Of a DNA stretch of 64,000 nucleotides, positions 27,040 to 47,803 are shown in pieces. The stretch is from Microlunatus soli (GTDB lineage: Bacteria > Actinomycetota > Actinomycetes > Propionibacteriales > Propionibacteriaceae): positions 6,386,001 through 6,450,000 of the forward strand of contig NZ_LT629772.1 in assembly GCF_900105385.1 (NCBI RefSeq), read 5' to 3'. Below the pieces are notes generated by a model. The model had not been told where the DNA came from and made no database searches. It worked only from the letters and a program-made list of their open reading frames with translations. Made by a program: the position numbers and the translations under genes. The first letter of the stretch is position 1. Each line of letters begins with the position of its first letter.

Positions 27040-29649
27040 ATGTCATCAGGCAAACCCTCGGACCAGTTGACCGCGTTGCGTTCCGGATTCGCCGAACCGT
27101 CACCGGACAGCCGGGTGATGATGCGCTGGTGGTGGTTCGGCCCCGATGTCACCCGGGCCGAGCTTGATCGCGAACTCCAGGTGATGGCCGAGGCCGGCAT
27201 CGGCGGCGTCGAAGTCTCCTACGTGTACCCGCTGAGCGCCGACAGCCCCGAACTGCTCGGCCCCGAGTTCCTTGATCATCTCCGCTATGCCGCCGAACGA
27301 GCACGTGATCTCGGCCTCCGCTTCGATCTCACCTTGGGCAGCGGCTGGTCCTTCGGCGGTCCGCACATCGACGCCGACCATGCCGCCAAGCAGCTGGACT
27401 GGGAGCGTCGGGAGATCACCGGCGAACCGGTCGATCTTCCGATCCGGACCTGGCCCGGCGACCGGCTGGTGGCGGCCTACCTCGGTGGCGGCAGCGCACA
27501 GGAACCGCCGACCGACTGCGTACGGCTGGAGATCGCGGACGACCGGCTGCAGATCCCCCGAGGCAGTGGACCGCGGCAACTGCTGCTGGCGATCGAACGG
27601 CCGACCGGTCAGGTCGTCAAGCGGGCGGCCGCCGGCGCCGACGGGCCGGTCCTCGACCATTACTCCGCGTCCGCCGCGCGAGCGCATTTGGACACGTTCG
27701 CCGAACCGCTGCTGGCCGCGGTGCCGGCGGAGCTGATCGGCTCGGTCTTCTGTGACAGTCTCGAGGTGTACGGCGCAAACTGGACACCCGACCTGGTCGA
27801 CGAATTCGAACGCCGCCGCGGCTATCCGCTGCTCCCCCGGCTGTACGAGTTGATCATCAACACCGACGCCTCCGACCAGCTGCGGATCGACTACTACCGC
27901 ACCCTCACCGAGCTGTACGAAGAGAACTTCGTGACGGTCTTCCAGCGCTGGGCCGCCGATCATGGGGTCCGGTTCCGGATCCAGGGTTACGGTGCACCGC
28001 CGGCCAAGATCAGCAGCTACCGCTTTGCCGATCTGTACGAGGGTGAAGGCTGGGGCTGGCAGACGATCACCCAGACCCGGTGGGCGTCGTCGGCAGCACA
28101 CCTGGACGGGCTGCCGGTCGTCTCGGCGGAATCCTGGACCTGGGTGCACTCGCCGACGTTCCGGGCTACCCCGCTCGACCTGTTGGGTGAGGCGCACGAA
28201 CTGTTGCTGGACGGGGTCAACCAGTTCATCGGTCACGGCTGGCCCTACTCCCCGTCGGGCACCGAACGGGACGGACTGGGTTGGTTCTTCTACGCCGCCG
28301 GCGCACTGGACGACCGTAATCCGTGGTGGCCGGCGATGCCCGGCCTGATGCGCTACCTGCAACGGCTGAGCTGGCTGCAACGACAGGGCACGCCGGTGGC
28401 CGACATCGCGCTCTACGTCCCGTCCGATGATCTGTATCCGCACCTCGGCCGCGAGGTCGGTGGCAGCCTCGACCTGTGGCGGGAGACCAACCGAACGGTC
28501 GATCCGACGATCGTCGCCACCATCCGCGCGGGTGGCTGGGACTACGATCTGGTCGACGACGACGCATTGGAGCTGATCGACCCGACGACCAGACCGGTGT
28601 TCATCCTGCCGGCCGTCGACCGGTTGCCGGAGCGCACGCGCCAGTGGTTGGCCGACTATCAGGCCGACGGCGGAATCGTGTTGGCCGTCGAAGGATCGTC
28701 GACCGTGGGCACCCCTGGCGCCGTCACCGATCTCGACGCCGCGATCCGTGGCGCACTCGCCCCCGATCTCTCCATCACGCCGGTCTGCGGTGAGGTGGGC
28801 ATGGTGCACCGCCGGCTCGCTGGCGATGTCGATGGTGATGCCGGTGCCGTCGATGCCTATCTGCTGATCAACACCGGACCGCACCGTCGCGAGTTCAGCG
28901 CGACACCACGGACGTCGCACGCCGGACACGAGCTCTGGGATCCGATGACCGGCCAGCCGGTCGGCACGTTCTCGGACAGCAGCATCCCGATCGTCCTGGA
29001 GCCCTATCAGAGCGTCGTGATCGTCAGCCACGACGGCGCGAACCCGACCTCGTCCACCGTTCCCGGAGCCGGTGAGGAGATGCCGCTGGGGTCGGACTGG
29101 ACCGTTCAGTACGACGATCAGGAGCCCCGGACCGTCACGCTTCCCCATCGCTGGGAGGATGACCGGGACGGCTACTCGGGCAGCGCGGTCTATCGCGGCA
29201 CCATCGAGCTGAGCAGTGATCAGCCGGACGGGACGCCGTCGGGCGACCCGGCGCAGTTGATCATGGACTTCGGAGAGCTGCAACCGGCCCAGCTCGGCTC
29301 CGACGATCGGGACGGGATCCGCGGTCGGTCCTACCGGGTCAAGGGTGCGGCGCCGATCCGGGAGGTGGCCGAGGTGATCATCAACGGCCGCACCGCCGGG
29401 GTGGTGTGGGCGCCGCCCTACCAGGTCGATCTGTCCGACCTGCTGGTCACCGGCAGCAACGCCGTACAGATCCGGGTCAGCAACACGGCCGCGAATGCGC
29501 TGTCCCAGGACACGGCGATCGACCGGGCGGTCCAGGTGTCGCGGGGTCAATACGGCCAGCGGTTCGTGATGCAGGACCTGGATCGGGCCCTGGACGGAGT
29601 GAGCTCCGGCCTGCTGACGGTCCCGAAGATCATCCGACGACGCCGCTGA
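27040..29649 (+). CDS. Glycosyl hydrolase, GH106-like (alpha-L-rhamnosidase type)
   Basis: 869 residues without a signal peptide, so probably cytoplasmic. The N-terminal TIM-barrel starts with MMRWWWFGPDVTRAELDRELQ, GGVEVSYVYPL and LGSGWSFGGPHI, all characteristic of the large GH106-like group. Mid-protein WTPDLVDEFERRRGYPLLPRL, SAESWTWVHSPTFRATPLDLLGEAHELLLDGVNQFIGHGWPYSP are also family blocks and carry the acidic catalytic candidates. The C-terminus is a galactose-binding-like beta-sandwich (VIINGRTAGVVWAPPYQVDLSDLL). Together with the GH78 enzyme at the left edge this gives the region two rhamnose-cleaving candidates. Exact specificity is inferred. Confidence 0.82.
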   Translation: MSSGKPSDQLTALRSGFAEPSPDSRVMMRWWWFGPDVTRAELDRELQVMAEAGIGGVEVSYVYPLSADSPELLGPEFLDHLRYAAERARDLGLRFDLTLGSGWSFGGPHIDADHAAKQLDWERREITGEPVDLPIRTWPGDRLVAAYLGGGSAQEPPTDCVRLEIADDRLQIPRGSGPRQLLLAIERPTGQVVKRAAAGADGPVLDHYSASAARAHLDTFAEPLLAAVPAELIGSVFCDSLEVYGANWTPDLVDEFERRRGYPLLPRLYELIINTDASDQLRIDYYRTLTELYEENFVTVFQRWAADHGVRFRIQGYGAPPAKISSYRFADLYEGEGWGWQTITQTRWASSAAHLDGLPVVSAESWTWVHSPTFRATPLDLLGEAHELLLDGVNQFIGHGWPYSPSGTERDGLGWFFYAAGALDDRNPWWPAMPGLMRYLQRLSWLQRQGTPVADIALYVPSDDLYPHLGREVGGSLDLWRETNRTVDPTIVATIRAGGWDYDLVDDDALELIDPTTRPVFILPAVDRLPERTRQWLADYQADGGIVLAVEGSSTVGTPGAVTDLDAAIRGALAPDLSITPVCGEVGMVHRRLAGDVDGDAGAVDAYLLINTGPHRREFSATPRTSHAGHELWDPMTGQPVGTFSDSSIPIVLEPYQSVVIVSHDGANPTSSTVPGAGEEMPLGSDWTVQYDDQEPRTVTLPHRWEDDRDGYSGSAVYRGTIELSSDQPDGTPSGDPAQLIMDFGELQPAQLGSDDRDGIRGRSYRVKGAAPIREVAEVIINGRTAGVVWAPPYQVDLSDLLVTGSNAVQIRVSNTAANALSQDTAIDRAVQVSRGQYGQRFVMQDLDRALDGVSSGLLTVPKIIRRRR

Positions 29650-29658
29650 CCAACTCTG

Positions 29659-29687
29659 TTGCGGACGAGCACGGCTGGGCCTACGCT
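29659..29687 (+). promoter_or_regulatory. thrS leader promoter
   Basis: TTGCGG (29659-29664), 17-base spacer, TACGCT (29682-29687). The expected +1 falls at about 29694-29695, exactly on the ATG of the leader peptide, so the leader mRNA would be leaderless. Confidence 0.5.
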
Positions 29688-29694
29688 GGACGGC

Positions 29695-29763
29695 ATGTCA
29701 GGTCATCGCTCAGCAACGACGACGCCGGTCCACTCCGGCGCCGTCCGATCCGAGTTGTCCTGA
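29695..29763 (+). CDS. thrS attenuator leader peptide (22 residues, Thr-Thr-Thr)
   Basis: A small open frame ATG...TGA: MSGHRSATTTPVHSG and seven more residues. Codons 8-10 are ACG ACG ACG (29716-29724), three threonines in a row, upstream of an intrinsic terminator and a threonyl-tRNA synthetase gene. The third Thr codon abuts GCCGG (29724-29728), which can pair with CCGGC (29735-29739). A ribosome stalled for lack of Thr-tRNA would cover that first arm and free ACTCCGG (29732-29738) to pair with CCGGAGT (29784-29790), destroying the terminator. The peptide itself is not expected to have a function. It has almost no ribosome-binding site, consistent with leaderless initiation. Confidence 0.7.
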   Translation: MSGHRSATTTPVHSGAVRSELS

Positions 29764-29778
29764 CCCACAGCTCGTTCC

Positions 29779-29811
29779 AAGCCCCGGAGTCGATGACTCC
29801 GGGGCTTTGTC
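29779..29811 (+). terminator. thrS attenuator terminator
   Basis: A perfect 13-bp stem: AAGCCCCGGAGTC (29779-29791), loop GAT, GACTCCGGGGCTT (29795-29807), then TGTC. It lies 41 bases before the thrS ATG and 16 bases after the leader stop. Its 5' arm is also complementary to ACTCCGG at 29732-29738, giving a competing antiterminator. Confidence 0.8.
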
Positions 29812-29851
29812 GTGCTCGGGGTCCGAACTCCCCGTCCACCAGGAGCACATC

Positions 29852-31162
29852 ATGATCGACAACCACACCGACCCACTGCCCGAGGCGTTATCTTCCGAGG
29901 CGGCCCTGCCGTCGTCCGACCATCGGGTGATCGGTCGCGAGATGGGCATCTTCGCCAGCAATCCCCTGATCGGCTCCGGGCTGCCCCTGTGGCTTCCCGG
30001 CGGCGCGATCATCCGTCGCGAACTGGAGCAGTACGCCCACCAGTTGGCGATGGAGAGCGGCTGTGCGGAGGTCTACTCCCCCGTGCTCGCCAAACAGGAG
30101 CTGTACCAGCGGTCCGGTCACTGGGCGAAGTTCGCCGACGACATGTTCCCGGCGATGGACGTCGGCGATCATGATCACGCCGGTGACCAGCTGGTGCTCC
30201 GGCCGGCGAACTGCCCGCACCACGCGCTGATCTTCGCCAGCGAGCAGCGCAGCTATCGGGATCTGCCGATCCGCTACCACGAGATGGCCGCCATGTTCCG
30301 CGCCGAACGCTCCGGGGTGCTCTCCGGTCTCAGCCGGGTCCGGCAGATCAACCTCGACGACACCCACGTCTTCTGCAGGCCGGATCAGATCGCCCAGGAG
30401 GCGGAGCTCGCCCTGGACTGTGTCTTGCGCGGGCTGACCGTCCTCGGAGTCGGAATCGATCACCTTCGACTCTCCCTGCGGGACGACGGCGACGGTTACC
30501 TCGGTGATGATGATCAGTGGCGTGATGCCCAAGATCAACTCCGCGGCGTGTTGGACCGCGTCGGCGCGCTTCGTCCCGGGCTGCAGATCCGCGAAGCCGC
30601 CGGCGAAGCGGCGTTCTACGGCCCGAAGATCGACGTCCAGGTGCTCGACGCCCGCGGCCATCAGGAAAGTCTGGCCACCGTCCAGGTCGACTTCAACCAA
30701 CCCGAGCGATTCGGTCTGAAGTATGTCGACGCCGACGGCTCTGATCGCGGTGTGATCATGGTGCACCGCGGTGTCCTCGGAGCAATGGAGCGGATGGTCG
30801 GCTTCCTGTTGGAGATCCACGACGGCAGGCTCCCGCTGTGGCTGGCCCCCGTCCAGCTCTGCCTGCTCCCGGTGCACCCCGACCACCATGATCATGTCCG
30901 GCGGCTGGCGGACCGGATGACCGCGGCCGCACTGCGGGCCCGGGTCGAGTCCGACGGCACCCTTGGCAGGAGGATCCGGGCCGCGCGCAAACGTCGCGAC
31001 GCCGTCCTGGGGGTGGTCGGTGATGCCGAGCGTGCCGCCGACACCGTCTCGATCATCGATCCGCGCGCCGACATCTCCGCGGTGTTGCGATCGGGTGAGC
31101 TGATCGACATCCTCGGCGGTGCAGCGTCGTCTCGTGCGGTGAAGATCAACTGGCCGCAGTGA
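29852..31162 (+). CDS. thrS: Threonyl-tRNA synthetase, short form without TGS/editing domains
   Basis: 436 residues, compared with about 640-690 for full ThrRS: the N-terminal TGS and editing domains are absent and the protein begins directly at the class II catalytic core. Motif 2-like FRAERSGVLSGLSRVRQINLDDTHVFC and motif 3-like VHRGVLGAMERMVGFLLE are present. The three zinc ligands are kept: Cys121 (RPANCPHH), His172 (DDTHVF) and His305 (MVHRG), with spacing close to E. coli C334/H385/H511. The anticodon-binding domain follows (LWLAPVQLCLLPV onwards). It charges tRNA-Thr but cannot remove serine in cis, so it probably works beside a full-length enzyme. AGGAG lies six bases before the ATG. 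Its expression appears attenuator-controlled. Confidence 0.92.
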   Translation: MIDNHTDPLPEALSSEAALPSSDHRVIGREMGIFASNPLIGSGLPLWLPGGAIIRRELEQYAHQLAMESGCAEVYSPVLAKQELYQRSGHWAKFADDMFPAMDVGDHDHAGDQLVLRPANCPHHALIFASEQRSYRDLPIRYHEMAAMFRAERSGVLSGLSRVRQINLDDTHVFCRPDQIAQEAELALDCVLRGLTVLGVGIDHLRLSLRDDGDGYLGDDDQWRDAQDQLRGVLDRVGALRPGLQIREAAGEAAFYGPKIDVQVLDARGHQESLATVQVDFNQPERFGLKYVDADGSDRGVIMVHRGVLGAMERMVGFLLEIHDGRLPLWLAPVQLCLLPVHPDHHDHVRRLADRMTAAALRARVESDGTLGRRIRAARKRRDAVLGVVGDAERAADTVSIIDPRADISAVLRSGELIDILGGAASSRAVKINWPQ

Positions 31163-31195
31163 TCGTGGACTGTTCGGCGGCGGCCGACAGCTCGA

Positions 31196-32095
31196 TCAGC
31201 TCTTGGTGCCGACCGGGTAGACGGTCAGCTGGCGTACCGACTTGCTCTGACAGACGTCGGTCTCGAACTTGACGTAGGCCGAGGTGTAGGAGGACGGCGG
31301 GTAGACCCGGAAGCCGTCGGAGGTGGTCGGGACGCATTCGGCCGGATCGAAGTTGCCGGCGTTGGCGATCCGGAGCAACTCGGTCTGCACCTCGCCGTCG
31401 GAGAGCTTGACCTTCTCCGGGCTCGCCGATCGATCCCGGGCGGCCGGTTTGCCGAGTTGGGTGCCGTTCTTCTTGCCGACGAACGAGACACCGGCGTAGC
31501 CGTACATCGTGCACGGCGATCCGGAGGTGTTGGTGAAGGTGATCAATACATAGCTGCTGCCAGCGGCTCCGCTGCCTTCCGGGATCCGGGCACCGATCGA
31601 CAGGTCCTCCAGGGTGCACGTGGTCGGCGTGCTGTCCGGCTTGTCGGACGGTTCCTCGGTCGGTTCTGTCGTCGGATCCGGCTGTGACTTGTCCTTGCTG
31701 CCGGACGTGTCCTGCGAACCCTCGCCTGACTTGTCGTCCGATCCGGATCGGTGACCGTCGCCGGACTTCTTGGTGTGCTTGGACCCCTTGCGGTGCTTCG
31801 GGGCATCGTCGGACGTCTTCTCATCGGCCGAACCGCCGCCGGAACCGTCGCGTTTCGGCTCGTCCTGGTCGGTCGGCTCGGCGGACGGCGTCGGGCTCTG
31901 GTCGTCGGCAGACGGCTCGGGGGTGGGTTGATCAGGCCCAGCGGCGGAAGGTGTCGCTCGCCCGGAGACGACCGATTCGTGCGGGTCGCTCGGTCCGGCA
32001 ACCTGCATCCCGTTGCCGCAGCCGACCAGGGTGGCCGCCGCGGCGATGCCGACGACCAGCGTCAAGGCAGCGCGAACCGGTCGGCGTGGGGTCAT
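31196..32095 (-). CDS. DUF4232 lipoprotein with long charged linker
   Basis: 299 residues. Signal and lipobox TLVGCG (Cys about 26), then about 130 residues of low-complexity Ser/Asp/Lys/Pro linker (about 30-160), then a C-terminal beta-sandwich DUF4232 domain (CTLEDLSIGARIPEGSGAAG, FTNTSGSPCTMYGYAGVSFVG, CVPTTSDGFRVYPPSS). DUF4232 proteins are exported and cell-surface attached in actinobacteria; their role is unknown. The gene follows the sensor kinase by 131 bases on the same strand, which recalls CseA, the lipoprotein of the CseBC envelope-stress system, but there is no sequence similarity to CseA that I can claim. Confidence 0.8.
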   Translation of the reverse strand: MTPRRPVRAALTLVVGIAAAATLVGCGNGMQVAGPSDPHESVVSGRATPSAAGPDQPTPEPSADDQSPTPSAEPTDQDEPKRDGSGGGSADEKTSDDAPKHRKGSKHTKKSGDGHRSGSDDKSGEGSQDTSGSKDKSQPDPTTEPTEEPSDKPDSTPTTCTLEDLSIGARIPEGSGAAGSSYVLITFTNTSGSPCTMYGYAGVSFVGKKNGTQLGKPAARDRSASPEKVKLSDGEVQTELLRIANAGNFDPAECVPTTSDGFRVYPPSSYTSAYVKFETDVCQSKSVRQLTVYPVGTKS

Positions 32096-32226
32096 GTCGG
32101 AGAGAGTACGGTGTCGGTCTCGCGGGCCCATCTCGTGCCCATCACAACCACGTCTCATTCGTGACCTTCCATCCGCAGCCCGACCTGCACCGCACCGATG
32201 CCGGTGACCGTCATACCGTCGCGTCA

Positions 32227-33570
32227 TCACCGCCTGACGGTGTCCACCTCCTGCTGCCCCGGTGGCCGCTCCTGCCCCGGCGGGGCGGTCGGTAGCTCGA
32301 TGGTCACCCGGGCGCCGGAACCGGGCGCGTTGTCGAAGTACAGCCGTCCGCCCAGGACCGAGGCCTGACCGGAGGCGATGATCAGCCCGAGCCCGTGACC
32401 GCCTCCCCGACTGGCCGAGGACCGGTGGAACCGCTGCGGGCCGGTGGCCAGGAAGTCCTTGCCGAAGCCCTGACCGTTGTCGGTGACGACGATCCGGCCT
32501 CCGGAGGCCTCGATCACGATCGGCGGCTGTCCGTGCTGCAGCGCGTTGCGGATCAGGTTGCTCAACACCCGTTCGAGCCGACGTGCGTCGGTCAGCACGG
32601 TCACCGTATCGGCGTCCGGGCGTACCGTCAGCGCCTCGACCGGATACTCACCCTTGGAAACTCCCCGTTGGACGGCGCGGGTGACGACGTCGGACACGCG
32701 GACCCACTCCAACTGGGCGGTTTCGACACCGCTGTCCAGACGGGCGATCTCGAGCAGTTCCTCGACCAGGCTCGCCATCGCGTTGGCCCGGTCCCGGATC
32801 ATCTCCGAGGGACGCGAATCGTCCAGCAGTGCCGCTGCAGTGGTCAGACCGGTCAGCGGCGTCCGAAGATCGTGAGCCACGTCGGCGGTGATCCGCTGCT
32901 CGGCACGCAGCCGGGCCGCCAGCCGATTGGCCATTGCGTCCACGGCGTCGGCCAGGTCGCCGACCTCGTCCTCGCCCGGGCCGACCGCTGCCCGGAGCGA
33001 TCGTTCACCGTTGTCCGGCAGCAGCGTTGCGCTCGAGGTCGTCCCGGTCGCGGTAGCGGCGATCCCGCGAGCCGTCCGGGCCGCCAACCGCAACCGCCGG
33101 GACAGCCCGTTGGCCGACAGCGCCCCGCCGATGGTGGCCGCGATCGCGGTCCCGATCCCGGCGATCAGCAACGCACGGTCGACCGCCTGCACCGACGCGT
33201 CGACCGCCGGAAAGGTGGTGCGGATGCTCAGCAGGTCGTCGCCGACCCGGCCCGCAGCCCAGACCACCCGGGTCTGGCCGCCGCTGATGTCGGTGCCGTG
33301 AGCTCCGTCGTGGGTCAGTGCCGTGCGCAGATCGGCCGGCACCCGCGGATCGTTCAGCTCGGCGTCGAAGCTCTTGAACCCGGTCGAGCGGTAGATGCCC
33401 ATCGCGGCGATCAGATTGGTGTTCGCCGCCTCCCGTTGCTGATCGATCCGGTTCTGGATCACCAGGAAGTGCACCGCCAGGGTGAGGATCGCGACCGCTG
33501 CCACCACGATGCAGGCGATCGTCGCGGCGATCCGGACCCGAAGTCCGGGGTGCAGCGTGGCGGCGGCCAT
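32227..33570 (-). CDS. Two-component sensor histidine kinase, CseC-like
   Basis: 447 residues. TM1 about 12-38, an extracytoplasmic sensor of about 95 residues, TM2 about 132-155, HAMP (about 155-225), HisKA with phosphoacceptor His233 in ADVAHDLRTPLTGL, and HATPase_c with N-box NLIRNALQHG, G1 DNGQGFG and G2 RGGGHGLGLIIASGQ. The ATG shares one base with the regulator stop (TGATG), so the two are translationally coupled. The layout and the partner regulator resemble the CseB/CseC envelope-stress pair of Streptomyces; the ligand is unknown. Confidence 0.9.
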   Translation of the reverse strand: MAAATLHPGLRVRIAATIACIVVAAVAILTLAVHFLVIQNRIDQQREAANTNLIAAMGIYRSTGFKSFDAELNDPRVPADLRTALTHDGAHGTDISGGQTRVVWAAGRVGDDLLSIRTTFPAVDASVQAVDRALLIAGIGTAIAATIGGALSANGLSRRLRLAARTARGIAATATGTTSSATLLPDNGERSLRAAVGPGEDEVGDLADAVDAMANRLAARLRAEQRITADVAHDLRTPLTGLTTAAALLDDSRPSEMIRDRANAMASLVEELLEIARLDSGVETAQLEWVRVSDVVTRAVQRGVSKGEYPVEALTVRPDADTVTVLTDARRLERVLSNLIRNALQHGQPPIVIEASGGRIVVTDNGQGFGKDFLATGPQRFHRSSASRGGGHGLGLIIASGQASVLGGRLYFDNAPGSGARVTIELPTAPPGQERPPGQQEVDTVRR

Positions 33571-34286
33571 CAGCGCCGCAGCTTGTAGCCGAACCCGCGG
33601 ACCGTCTCGATCCGGTCGTTGCCGATCTTGGCGCGTAGCCGCTGGACATGGACGTTCACCAGGTGATCATCTTCTTCCCACTCCGGGTAGTCCCAGACCC
33701 GTTGCAACAGGGCCGATCGGGAAAGCACGACCCCGGGGCTGGCGGCGAGTTCCAACAGCAATCGCATCTCGGTCGGGGTCAGATTGATCGACGTGCCCGA
33801 CCGGGTCAGTTCCAGGGCTCGCCGATCAAGATCAAGATCACCGATCCGTACGTGGTCGCCGGCGTCGGCCGTCGGGGTCGCCTCAGGCGCCGGTGCGGGC
33901 GCCGGTTCGGAACGCCGTGAGACGCTGCGGAGTCGGGCCAACAGCACCTGGATGTCGAACGGCTTGGTCACGTAGTCGTCGGCACCGGCCTCCAGGCCGG
34001 ACACGATGTCGATCGACTCCGAACGGGCCGAGATCATCACGACCGGCGTGTTGCCGGCCTCCCGGATCCGCCGGCACAGGCTGATCCCGTCCAGCCCGGG
34101 CAGCATCACGTCGCAGAGCACGATCTGGAACTCGGTCCCCGGCTCTCGACCGGTGAACGTCCGCCAGGCGTCCAGGCCGTCACGCTCCCAACTGACGTCG
34201 TAGTCGTAGCGCTCCAGATTGAGCTGGGTCGCCTCGCCGATCACTTCGTCGTCCTCGACCAGCAGCAACCTGCCTGCTGTCGCCAT
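33570..34286 (-). CDS. OmpR-family response regulator, CseB-like
   Basis: 238 residues. Receiver domain with acidic pair E11-D12/D13, phosphoacceptor Asp59 (LCDVMLPGLDGISLCRRIR), Thr/Ser and Lys in MISARSES and YVTKPFD. Then a Pro/Ala linker and a winged-helix DNA-binding domain (LTPTEMRLLLELAASPGVVLSRSALL, HVQRLRAKIG, ETVRGFGYKLRR). The SLCRRIRE and ARSESIDIVSGLEAGADDYVTKPFD blocks are close to Streptomyces CseB. GGAAGGA stands six bases before the ATG at 34286. It probably controls envelope-related genes in response to its kinase. Confidence 0.9.
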   Translation of the reverse strand: MATAGRLLLVEDDEVIGEATQLNLERYDYDVSWERDGLDAWRTFTGREPGTEFQIVLCDVMLPGLDGISLCRRIREAGNTPVVMISARSESIDIVSGLEAGADDYVTKPFDIQVLLARLRSVSRRSEPAPAPAPEATPTADAGDHVRIGDLDLDRRALELTRSGTSINLTPTEMRLLLELAASPGVVLSRSALLQRVWDYPEWEEDDHLVNVHVQRLRAKIGNDRIETVRGFGYKLRR

Positions 34287-34461
34287 CTGCCGTCCTTCCA
34301 CCGGATCCAGTCAACATGCCAACGGTCGCACGATTGCGCCTCCGGTCCCGACAGGCCCACCGACCGTGCCCCGACCGAGATGTCCCGACCTGCAGCAGGC
34401 CGACCTTACACAGGGCGGGATCCAACGCCCGGGAGGGCGCCGAGGCGGCGAGGCGGGGCGG

Positions 34462-47699: not shown

Positions 47700-47756
47700 G
47701 GTCGGACTGGTTCCTTCGCGGGCGTCGGTTTGATCCTCCGGCGCGCCGTCGCGCCC

Positions 47757-47803
47757 GTGTCGTGCTCGGGTGCACGACACGGACAAACAATATCGTGACA
47801 CGA
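47757..47803. promoter_or_regulatory. Two inverted repeats between divergent clc and marR
   Basis: GTGTCGTG/CACGACAC (47757-47764 and 47773-47780) and TCGTGACACGA (47793-47803) share the half-site TCGTG/CACGA. They are placed just upstream of a possible marR -10 (TACTAT, 47806-47811). A MarR dimer could bind both and control both genes. Confidence 0.55.

Follow-up and report, generated by a model that had tools for sequence, protein, structure and literature searches.

By its title, a 2010 study of Vecchione and Sello reportedly placed an auxiliary tryptophanyl-tRNA synthetase of Streptomyces under ribosome-mediated attenuation and connected it with antibiotic resistance. As far as the title goes, this system resembles the locus characterized here in that an auxiliary synthetase is attenuated; amino acid and enzyme are different, and antibiotic resistance figures in that title only. 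Two threonyl-tRNA synthetase (ThrRS) genes of Bacillus subtilis are said, in a title of Putzer from 1992, to be controlled by antitermination through a conserved sequence. This sequence is the T-box, which is not known to involve a leader peptide. Judged from that title, the B. subtilis pair shares with our case two ThrRS genes and RNA control of transcription, with a T-box there and a leader peptide here.

Because the thrL-thrS pair of Streptomyces lividans TK24 has already been reported (PMC8079986), the leader characterized here is not the first of its sort. In the accessible passages of that report, thrL (MKRVRPFLETTPGFVPAR) precedes thrS and is described as leaderless, with unclear termination. 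Like our leader, it combines a leaderless peptide before thrS with a single hairpin that lacks a U-rich sequence, and its end (...TTP...VPAR) resembles many of the leaders found here. The report concerns one species and two Thr codons, whereas the leaders presented here have three and are spread class-wide, and its accessible passages make no remark on competing helices, relatives or a short paralogue. The S. lividans thrS behind thrL is presumably the short form described below. Table 4 of the same report also gives metL, before metNIQ, with a Thr-Thr-Thr-Pro run; metL may be a related Thr-reading leader.

In the parts available, a 2005 survey of actinobacteria (PMC1262725) covers Corynebacterium and Streptomyces attenuators of trp operons and of trpS and leuS, those of trpS and leuS being predicted, and reports that threonine operons showed no conserved RNA structures. 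What these attenuators have in common with ours is the actinobacterial setting, a run of cognate codons, an antiterminator and a terminator that share a complementary core, and synthetase genes among the targets. They sense Trp or Leu, not Thr, and the trp and leuS terminators carry U-tracts, unlike the one described here.

In the open-access literature searched, the leader is not reported beyond S. lividans thrL and a row in a WblC table, and we found no earlier report there of its class-wide spread, its tie to a short ThrRS or the shared CCGG design. Here, we show that the thrL-thrS leader already known from S. lividans occurs class-wide and that a WblC/WhiB7-like box stands in front of it in two families. 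The locus is located in a window, by which we mean the whole analysed stretch of 64,000 nt, of Microlunatus soli (GCF_900105385.1, NZ_LT629772.1, positions 6,386,001-6,450,000, forward strand). We consider it very likely that the leader is a ribosome-mediated transcription attenuator of thrS2, the gene of a reserve and probably editing-less ThrRS.

Leader anatomy and alternative helices

All leader features lie on the plus strand. A weak -35-like hexamer, TTGCGG (29659-29664, 3/6 match to TTGACA), and the -10 hexamer TACGCT (29682-29687) are separated by a 17-nt spacer, and 7 nt after the latter follows the ATG (29695-29697) of the leader peptide gene thrL (MSGHRSATTTPVHSGAVRSELS-stop, 22 codons, 29695-29763, stop codon at 29761-29763). 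Three consecutive Thr control codons, ACG ACG ACG, occupy 29716-29724. Arm 1 (CGCCGG, 29723-29728) and the CCGGCG at 29735-29740 of arm 2 (ACTCCGGCG, 29732-29740) make up the protector stem. Alternatively, ACTCCGG at 29732-29738 of arm 2 can pair over 7 bp with CCGGAGT at 29784-29790 of arm 3. Arm 3 (AAGCCCCGGAGTC, 29779-29791) is also the 5' half, and arm 4 (GACTCCGGGGCTT, 29795-29807) the 3' half, of a perfect, GC-rich 13-bp stem, the putative terminator, with a GAT loop, whose tail TGTCGTGC contains no U-tract. Promoter hexamers, 22-codon frame, Thr run, protector, competing pairing and hairpin had all been named in an initial annotation of the locus and were read directly from the sequence; a strict consensus scan at the leader returned 0 promoters and 0 U-tract terminators.

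Only two distinct hairpins with at least 10 Watson-Crick pairs and a loop of 3-8 exist in the 64 kb, the leader hairpin being the longer, and the leader RNA folds with z = -6.0 (0/200 shuffles as good). Together with its recurrence in relatives, this hairpin rarity and fold score make the arrangement more than chance. The other hairpin has 11 perfect pairs (47755-47782). A search of the window with Rfam, including the Thr operon leader and other described leaders, gave 0 matches at gathering score.

The position of the promoter suggests that transcription starts at or beside the leader ATG at 29695, and not downstream of 29763, which would give a leaderless transcript. In 131/131 elements scored, an in-frame start codon (ATG 113, GTG 18) follows TANNNT at a distance of 6 or 7 nt. 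Most of these elements were found with a model containing this stretch, while the named loci (see below) and those of genus g31 were found without it. A -35 hexamer with at least 4/6 matches to TTGACA is present in 31/129 aligned elements (24%; shuffled 8.6%). Control positions 1, 2 and 3 are ACG in 125, 128 and 131 of 131 elements, respectively. Eight genes of the window encode Thr more often by ACC than by ACG (122 ACC, 52 ACG), and the near-constant ACG of the control codons perhaps means that one isoacceptor is sensed.

CCGG, a self-complementary core, is present in all four arms of the window and in arms 1, 2, 3 and 4 of 116, 124, 127 and 128 of 131 elements. Since this core is common to all arms, helices 1:2 (protector), 2:3 (antiterminator) and 3:4 (terminator) are each possible, not simultaneously; their arms overlap, making the helices mutually exclusive, and in our models folding switches with ribosome position. 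Across 136 elements, a count that includes five added g31 elements, the contiguous helices have median lengths of 6 (1:2), 8 (2:3) and 12 pairs (3:4), the last forming a perfect stem of 7-17 pairs. With G-U pairs allowed, helix 2:3 has at least 6 contiguous pairs in 122/136 elements and 5 or fewer in the other 14/136, and averages 7.15 pairs compared with 5.41 when arm 2 is mononucleotide-shuffled. In family f1, 5 pairs or fewer are seen in 3/9 elements (L008, L068 and L077), and L077 has none at the expected place. The conservation of the 29732-29738/29784-29790 pairing, raised by the initial annotation, is borne out in the 7 genus genomes that have this gene, with 6-7 pairs in 6/7 and 5 pairs in the seventh, L008. 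Duplexes of arm 2 with its own arm 3 are more stable than swapped ones (-15.5 versus -14.5 kcal/mol; 0/300 permutations as good, 131 elements), and when one representative was taken for each of 14 families, the own partner was better in 300/300 draws. L122 and L146, in which no perfect 7-pair stem was found, were left out of energy and hairpin counts.

For folding models of the window RNA, we assumed a value for the ribosome footprint. In RNA ending at 29790, the predicted P(1:2) is about 1.0 when ribosome-free, and a ribosome on Thr1 or Thr2 leads to a P(2:3) of 0.81-1.0 per pair. For a ribosome on Thr3 only the last four pairs of 2:3 are predicted to remain, and for one at the stop codon the model gives a P(1:2) of 0.89 and a P(2:3) of 0.11. 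Since a ribosome at the window stop codon leaves arm 2 uncovered, the protector must do work there. Once arm 4 has been made, the modelled terminator probability is 1.0 in every equilibrium fold, stalled ribosome included. A finished transcript that always prefers the terminator means that antitermination would have to be kinetic.

The RNA motif CTCCGGCG is kept across leaders in differing reading frames, as Ser-Gly-Ala or Leu-Arg-Arg, which points towards selection on the RNA and not on the peptide. In helix 2:3, pairing in the column that adjoins the core is seen in 128/132 elements, compared with at most 115 in 2000 shuffles, and the next four columns show no excess pairing over shuffles in these 132 elements. 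This parse omits L164 (132/133 kept) and misreads at least two elements, L094 and L008. With regard to covariation in the stems, expected from the initial annotation, one two-sided change in the antiterminator, T-A to C-G, was found; it represents a single event on an 82-row protein tree, and the four independent pairs found on this tree vary on only one side of helix 2:3. Covariation was thus rejected as proof of helix 2:3. The idea that the ACG run pairs with the hairpin tail was likewise discarded as not general, with at least 6 complementary bases in 31/131 elements and fewer than 4 in 53.

The short ThrRS and its linkage to the leader

The downstream gene thrS2 (29852-31162, plus strand) encodes a short ThrRS of 436 aa. 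Its product matches TIGR00418 with 389.1 bits (curated cut-off 383.65), over profile positions 169-544 of 565 only. In the Pfam search, the catalytic core PF00587 and, weakly, the anticodon-binding domain PF03129 appear, both only at E 0.001, and there is no match to the editing domain tRNA_SAD (PF07973) or to TGS. The anticodon-binding domain scores 23.4 bits compared with 53-64 in three full-length forms. Elsewhere in the same genome, the housekeeping ThrRS (L002, at 6.63 Mb) carries tRNA_SAD, and a third ThrRS-like match (L003) is weak, with 30% over about 130 residues. This SAD-less profile, next to a SAD-bearing ThrRS elsewhere, indicates that thrS2 encodes a short, probably editing-less second ThrRS that presumably charges tRNA-Thr. 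Thus, the annotated target, thrS, is correct in so far as TIGR00418 identifies a ThrRS; the housekeeping synthetase is a different gene, and the one here is a short paralogue from which the editing domain is missing. The 82-row protein tree, built with a quick method, comprises 32 rows from the window's subfamily, 38 sampled from the other subfamily, 4 of genus g31 and 8 full-length forms; on it, a branch with an SH-aLRT of 100 separates the 74 short forms from the 8 full-length ones. A lost zinc ligand in the short form, at a position that we take to be that of E. coli His385, was considered and rejected: alignable full-length actinobacterial ThrRSs read Tyr at the same place, so this residue is not special to the short form.

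Within a sample of 20 genomes of the genus, the short ThrRS is found in 7, each of which also has a full-length ThrRS. The Thr leader precedes short thrS in all 7, which confirms the conservation of the Thr run anticipated by the initial annotation. The short ThrRS frame of L009 (G004) contains one in-frame TAG, reflecting a decayed gene or a sequencing error. Conservation counts started from a protein search for the short ThrRS, and leader counts are therefore not biased by the RNA model. Thr leader and hairpin precede short thrS in 23/23 named loci (Promicromonospora, Antribacter, Isoptericola MAGs, Luteipulveratus, Flexivirga, Nocardioides and Actinocatenispora), in the form of a start codon, few codons, Thr-Thr-Thr-Pro and stop, followed by the hairpin. 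These 23 leaders were combined with 4 genus leaders, 27 in all, to build the covariance model R1.

Protein searches at E 1e-90 in an order sample of 245 genomes and at E 1e-88 in a class sample of 394 genomes, cut-offs at which shorter or more diverged ThrRS forms would be missed, gave 53 genomes and 65 matches, respectively. Subtracting the full-length G116 (771-residue frame) from the former and four full-length forms (G109, G382, G391 and G438) from the latter leaves 52 and 61 short forms. In the order sample, the Thr leader precedes short thrS in 52/52 cases: 47 of the 245 genomes have an R1 match of at least 42.5 bits, every one before a same-strand ThrRS, and five leaders were read by eye (G026, G029, G032, G043 and G046), being diverged with Thr run and hairpin kept. 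In the class sample, the Thr leader is present in 59/59 readable cases out of 61, since G395 and G520 begin at a contig end. Here, 54 leaders reach at least 41.5 bits with R1, those of G293, G310, G325 and G439 score 36.4-40.2 bits with the Thr leader seen, and that of G447, read by eye, has an imperfect hairpin. Some of the 61 short forms lie in open frames of up to 811 from stop to stop; because the leader is found directly before the catalytic core in these cases, the product made from it would be short. Overall, the Thr run is present in every protein-found relative for which the upstream region is available.

At 41.5 bits or more, R1 matches 104 genomes of the order and class samples, 103 of them before a same-strand ThrRS, with G469 running off its contig. 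Below this score, 15 loci were checked (L128-L130 and L159-L170), of which 4 stand before a ThrRS and 11 do not, resembling plain terminators; the best match without ThrRS among those checked has 40.2 bits (G118). As most of these weak matches look like plain terminators, the raw R1 tallies of 163/245 genomes (order) and 171/394 (class) are not element counts. In L176 (G475) and L177 (G594), where a single ThrRS was found, this ThrRS is a full-length form with SAD domain and has the Thr leader in front of it; the control unit can therefore sit on either form. The surroundings of the element vary. An upstream GH106 rhamnosidase-like gene (27040-29649, same strand as thrL), thrL-thrS2 and a convergent DUF4232 gene are found together (27040-32230 in the window) in 4 genus genomes, and only there among the loci examined. 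With its neighbours varying, the leader goes with thrS and not with the GH106 or DUF4232 genes. Further downstream, the minus strand encodes a two-component pair most like CseC/CseB, below their cut-offs (32227-34301).

Alternative explanations and a possible second input

The leader could act mainly on translation or mRNA stability, with a stalled ribosome refolding the RNA and a 3:4 hairpin that, lacking a U-tract, does not terminate. The sequence after the window hairpin, UGUCGUGC, is indeed U-poor and not a U-tract, the scan finds no U-tract terminator, and the S. lividans authors, in the accessible passages, call thrL termination not clear and the U-rich sequence missing (PMC8079986). Against this stand the strong perfect hairpin (median 12 pairs, 136 elements) between leader stop and thrS and the Shine-Dalgarno-like site of thrS (AGGAG, 29841-29845, plus strand), which lies outside arms 1-4; we regard control at this level as improbable. 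U-poor terminators are common in actinobacteria. That the hairpin is a mere terminator of the GH106 gene and the Thr frame accidental is hardly credible, even if this gene has the same orientation and 45 nt separate its end from the leader, given that GH106 adjoins the element in only the 4 genus genomes among the loci examined, that the leader stays with ThrRS in 103/104 strong R1 matches, and that in 47/131 elements the 400 nt upstream have their longest open frame on the opposite strand. T-box control or autoregulation by the ThrRS protein, which govern the two B. subtilis ThrRS genes and E. coli thrS, might replace ribosome stalling. We give this next to no weight, as neither the window, searched with Rfam (T-box model included) at gathering score, nor three thrS2 loci, searched at E 0.5, yielded a match, and neither model explains conserved Thr codons together with a leaderless frame. 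At the housekeeping locus L002, Rfam at E 0.5 yields only two sub-threshold microRNA matches.

A different reading takes translation-inhibiting antibiotics or ThrRS inhibitors as the main signal and sees in the attenuator a single tier of the response to antibiotic stress. For S. coelicolor, the aminoacyl-tRNA genes listed as WblC/WhiB7-activated include one named thrS2, which may be the short form. The published WblC/WhiB7 box, GAAAWY, sits 3 bp ahead of the -35 element. At this place before the leader promoter, an exact box is found in 22/129 elements (0.08 expected) and one with at most one mismatch in 53/129 (2.2 expected). In families f22 and f23, exact boxes are present in 8/14 and 10/12 elements and boxes with at most one mismatch in 14/14 and 12/12, positioned 31-35 nt before the -10. 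Judging from its leaders, which resemble S. lividans thrL, f22 is probably Streptomycetaceae. The window leader promoter, in contrast, has no GAAAWY box at the published place, and exact boxes are seen in only 1/9 elements of f1, 0/37 of f2 and 0/15 of Promicromonosporaceae. Antibiotic stress as the main signal therefore appears doubtful to us; nor need it compete with attenuation, since the box would set initiation and not read-through. The S. coelicolor ThrRS gene SCO3778 is reported as a sigma-E binding target only in ethanol-stressed cells (PMC10771440), and sigma-E may thus add another input at a second ThrRS gene.

Proposed mechanism and implications

Anatomy, conservation, ThrRS linkage and helix switching in folding calculations support the attenuator reading, and with it the initial view of a trp/thr-type attenuator on a leaderless transcript before a synthetase gene. 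In the proposed mechanism, transcription would begin at or beside the leader ATG, so that a ribosome would load on the 5' end at once. With Thr-tRNA well charged, the ribosome would pass the ACG run and reach the stop codon, arm 2 would be covered or paired with arm 1, and the 3:4 terminator would form and end transcription in vivo. When charged Thr-tRNA is scarce, through threonine starvation or because the housekeeping ThrRS is blocked or overloaded, the ribosome would stall on the ACG codons, covering arm 1 and freeing arm 2. The freed arm would catch arm 3 on its emergence and leave arm 4 partnerless, allowing RNA polymerase to continue into thrS2, whose short product would then charge tRNA-Thr.

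Tentatively, we can picture an Actinobacteria-wide, proofreading-free reserve ThrRS that is silenced by a leaderless Thr attenuator and released upon collapse of Thr-tRNA charging, with a WblC/WhiB7 box adding antibiotic stress in some families, accuracy traded for survival and the whole cassette being portable. If true, the cell would give up accuracy in order to survive, the cost being Ser at Thr codons, as we infer from the missing SAD domain. The leaderless leaders with U-poor hairpins assembled here form a large set for comparison, which would help in studying such terminators. Two questions are opened, namely whether many actinobacteria keep a low-fidelity reserve ThrRS for threonine-tRNA crises and whether this enzyme belongs to their intrinsic response to translation inhibitors. 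What had been noted for one Streptomyces gene is hereby extended to a regulatory family that spans the class and goes with a ThrRS lacking the editing domain.
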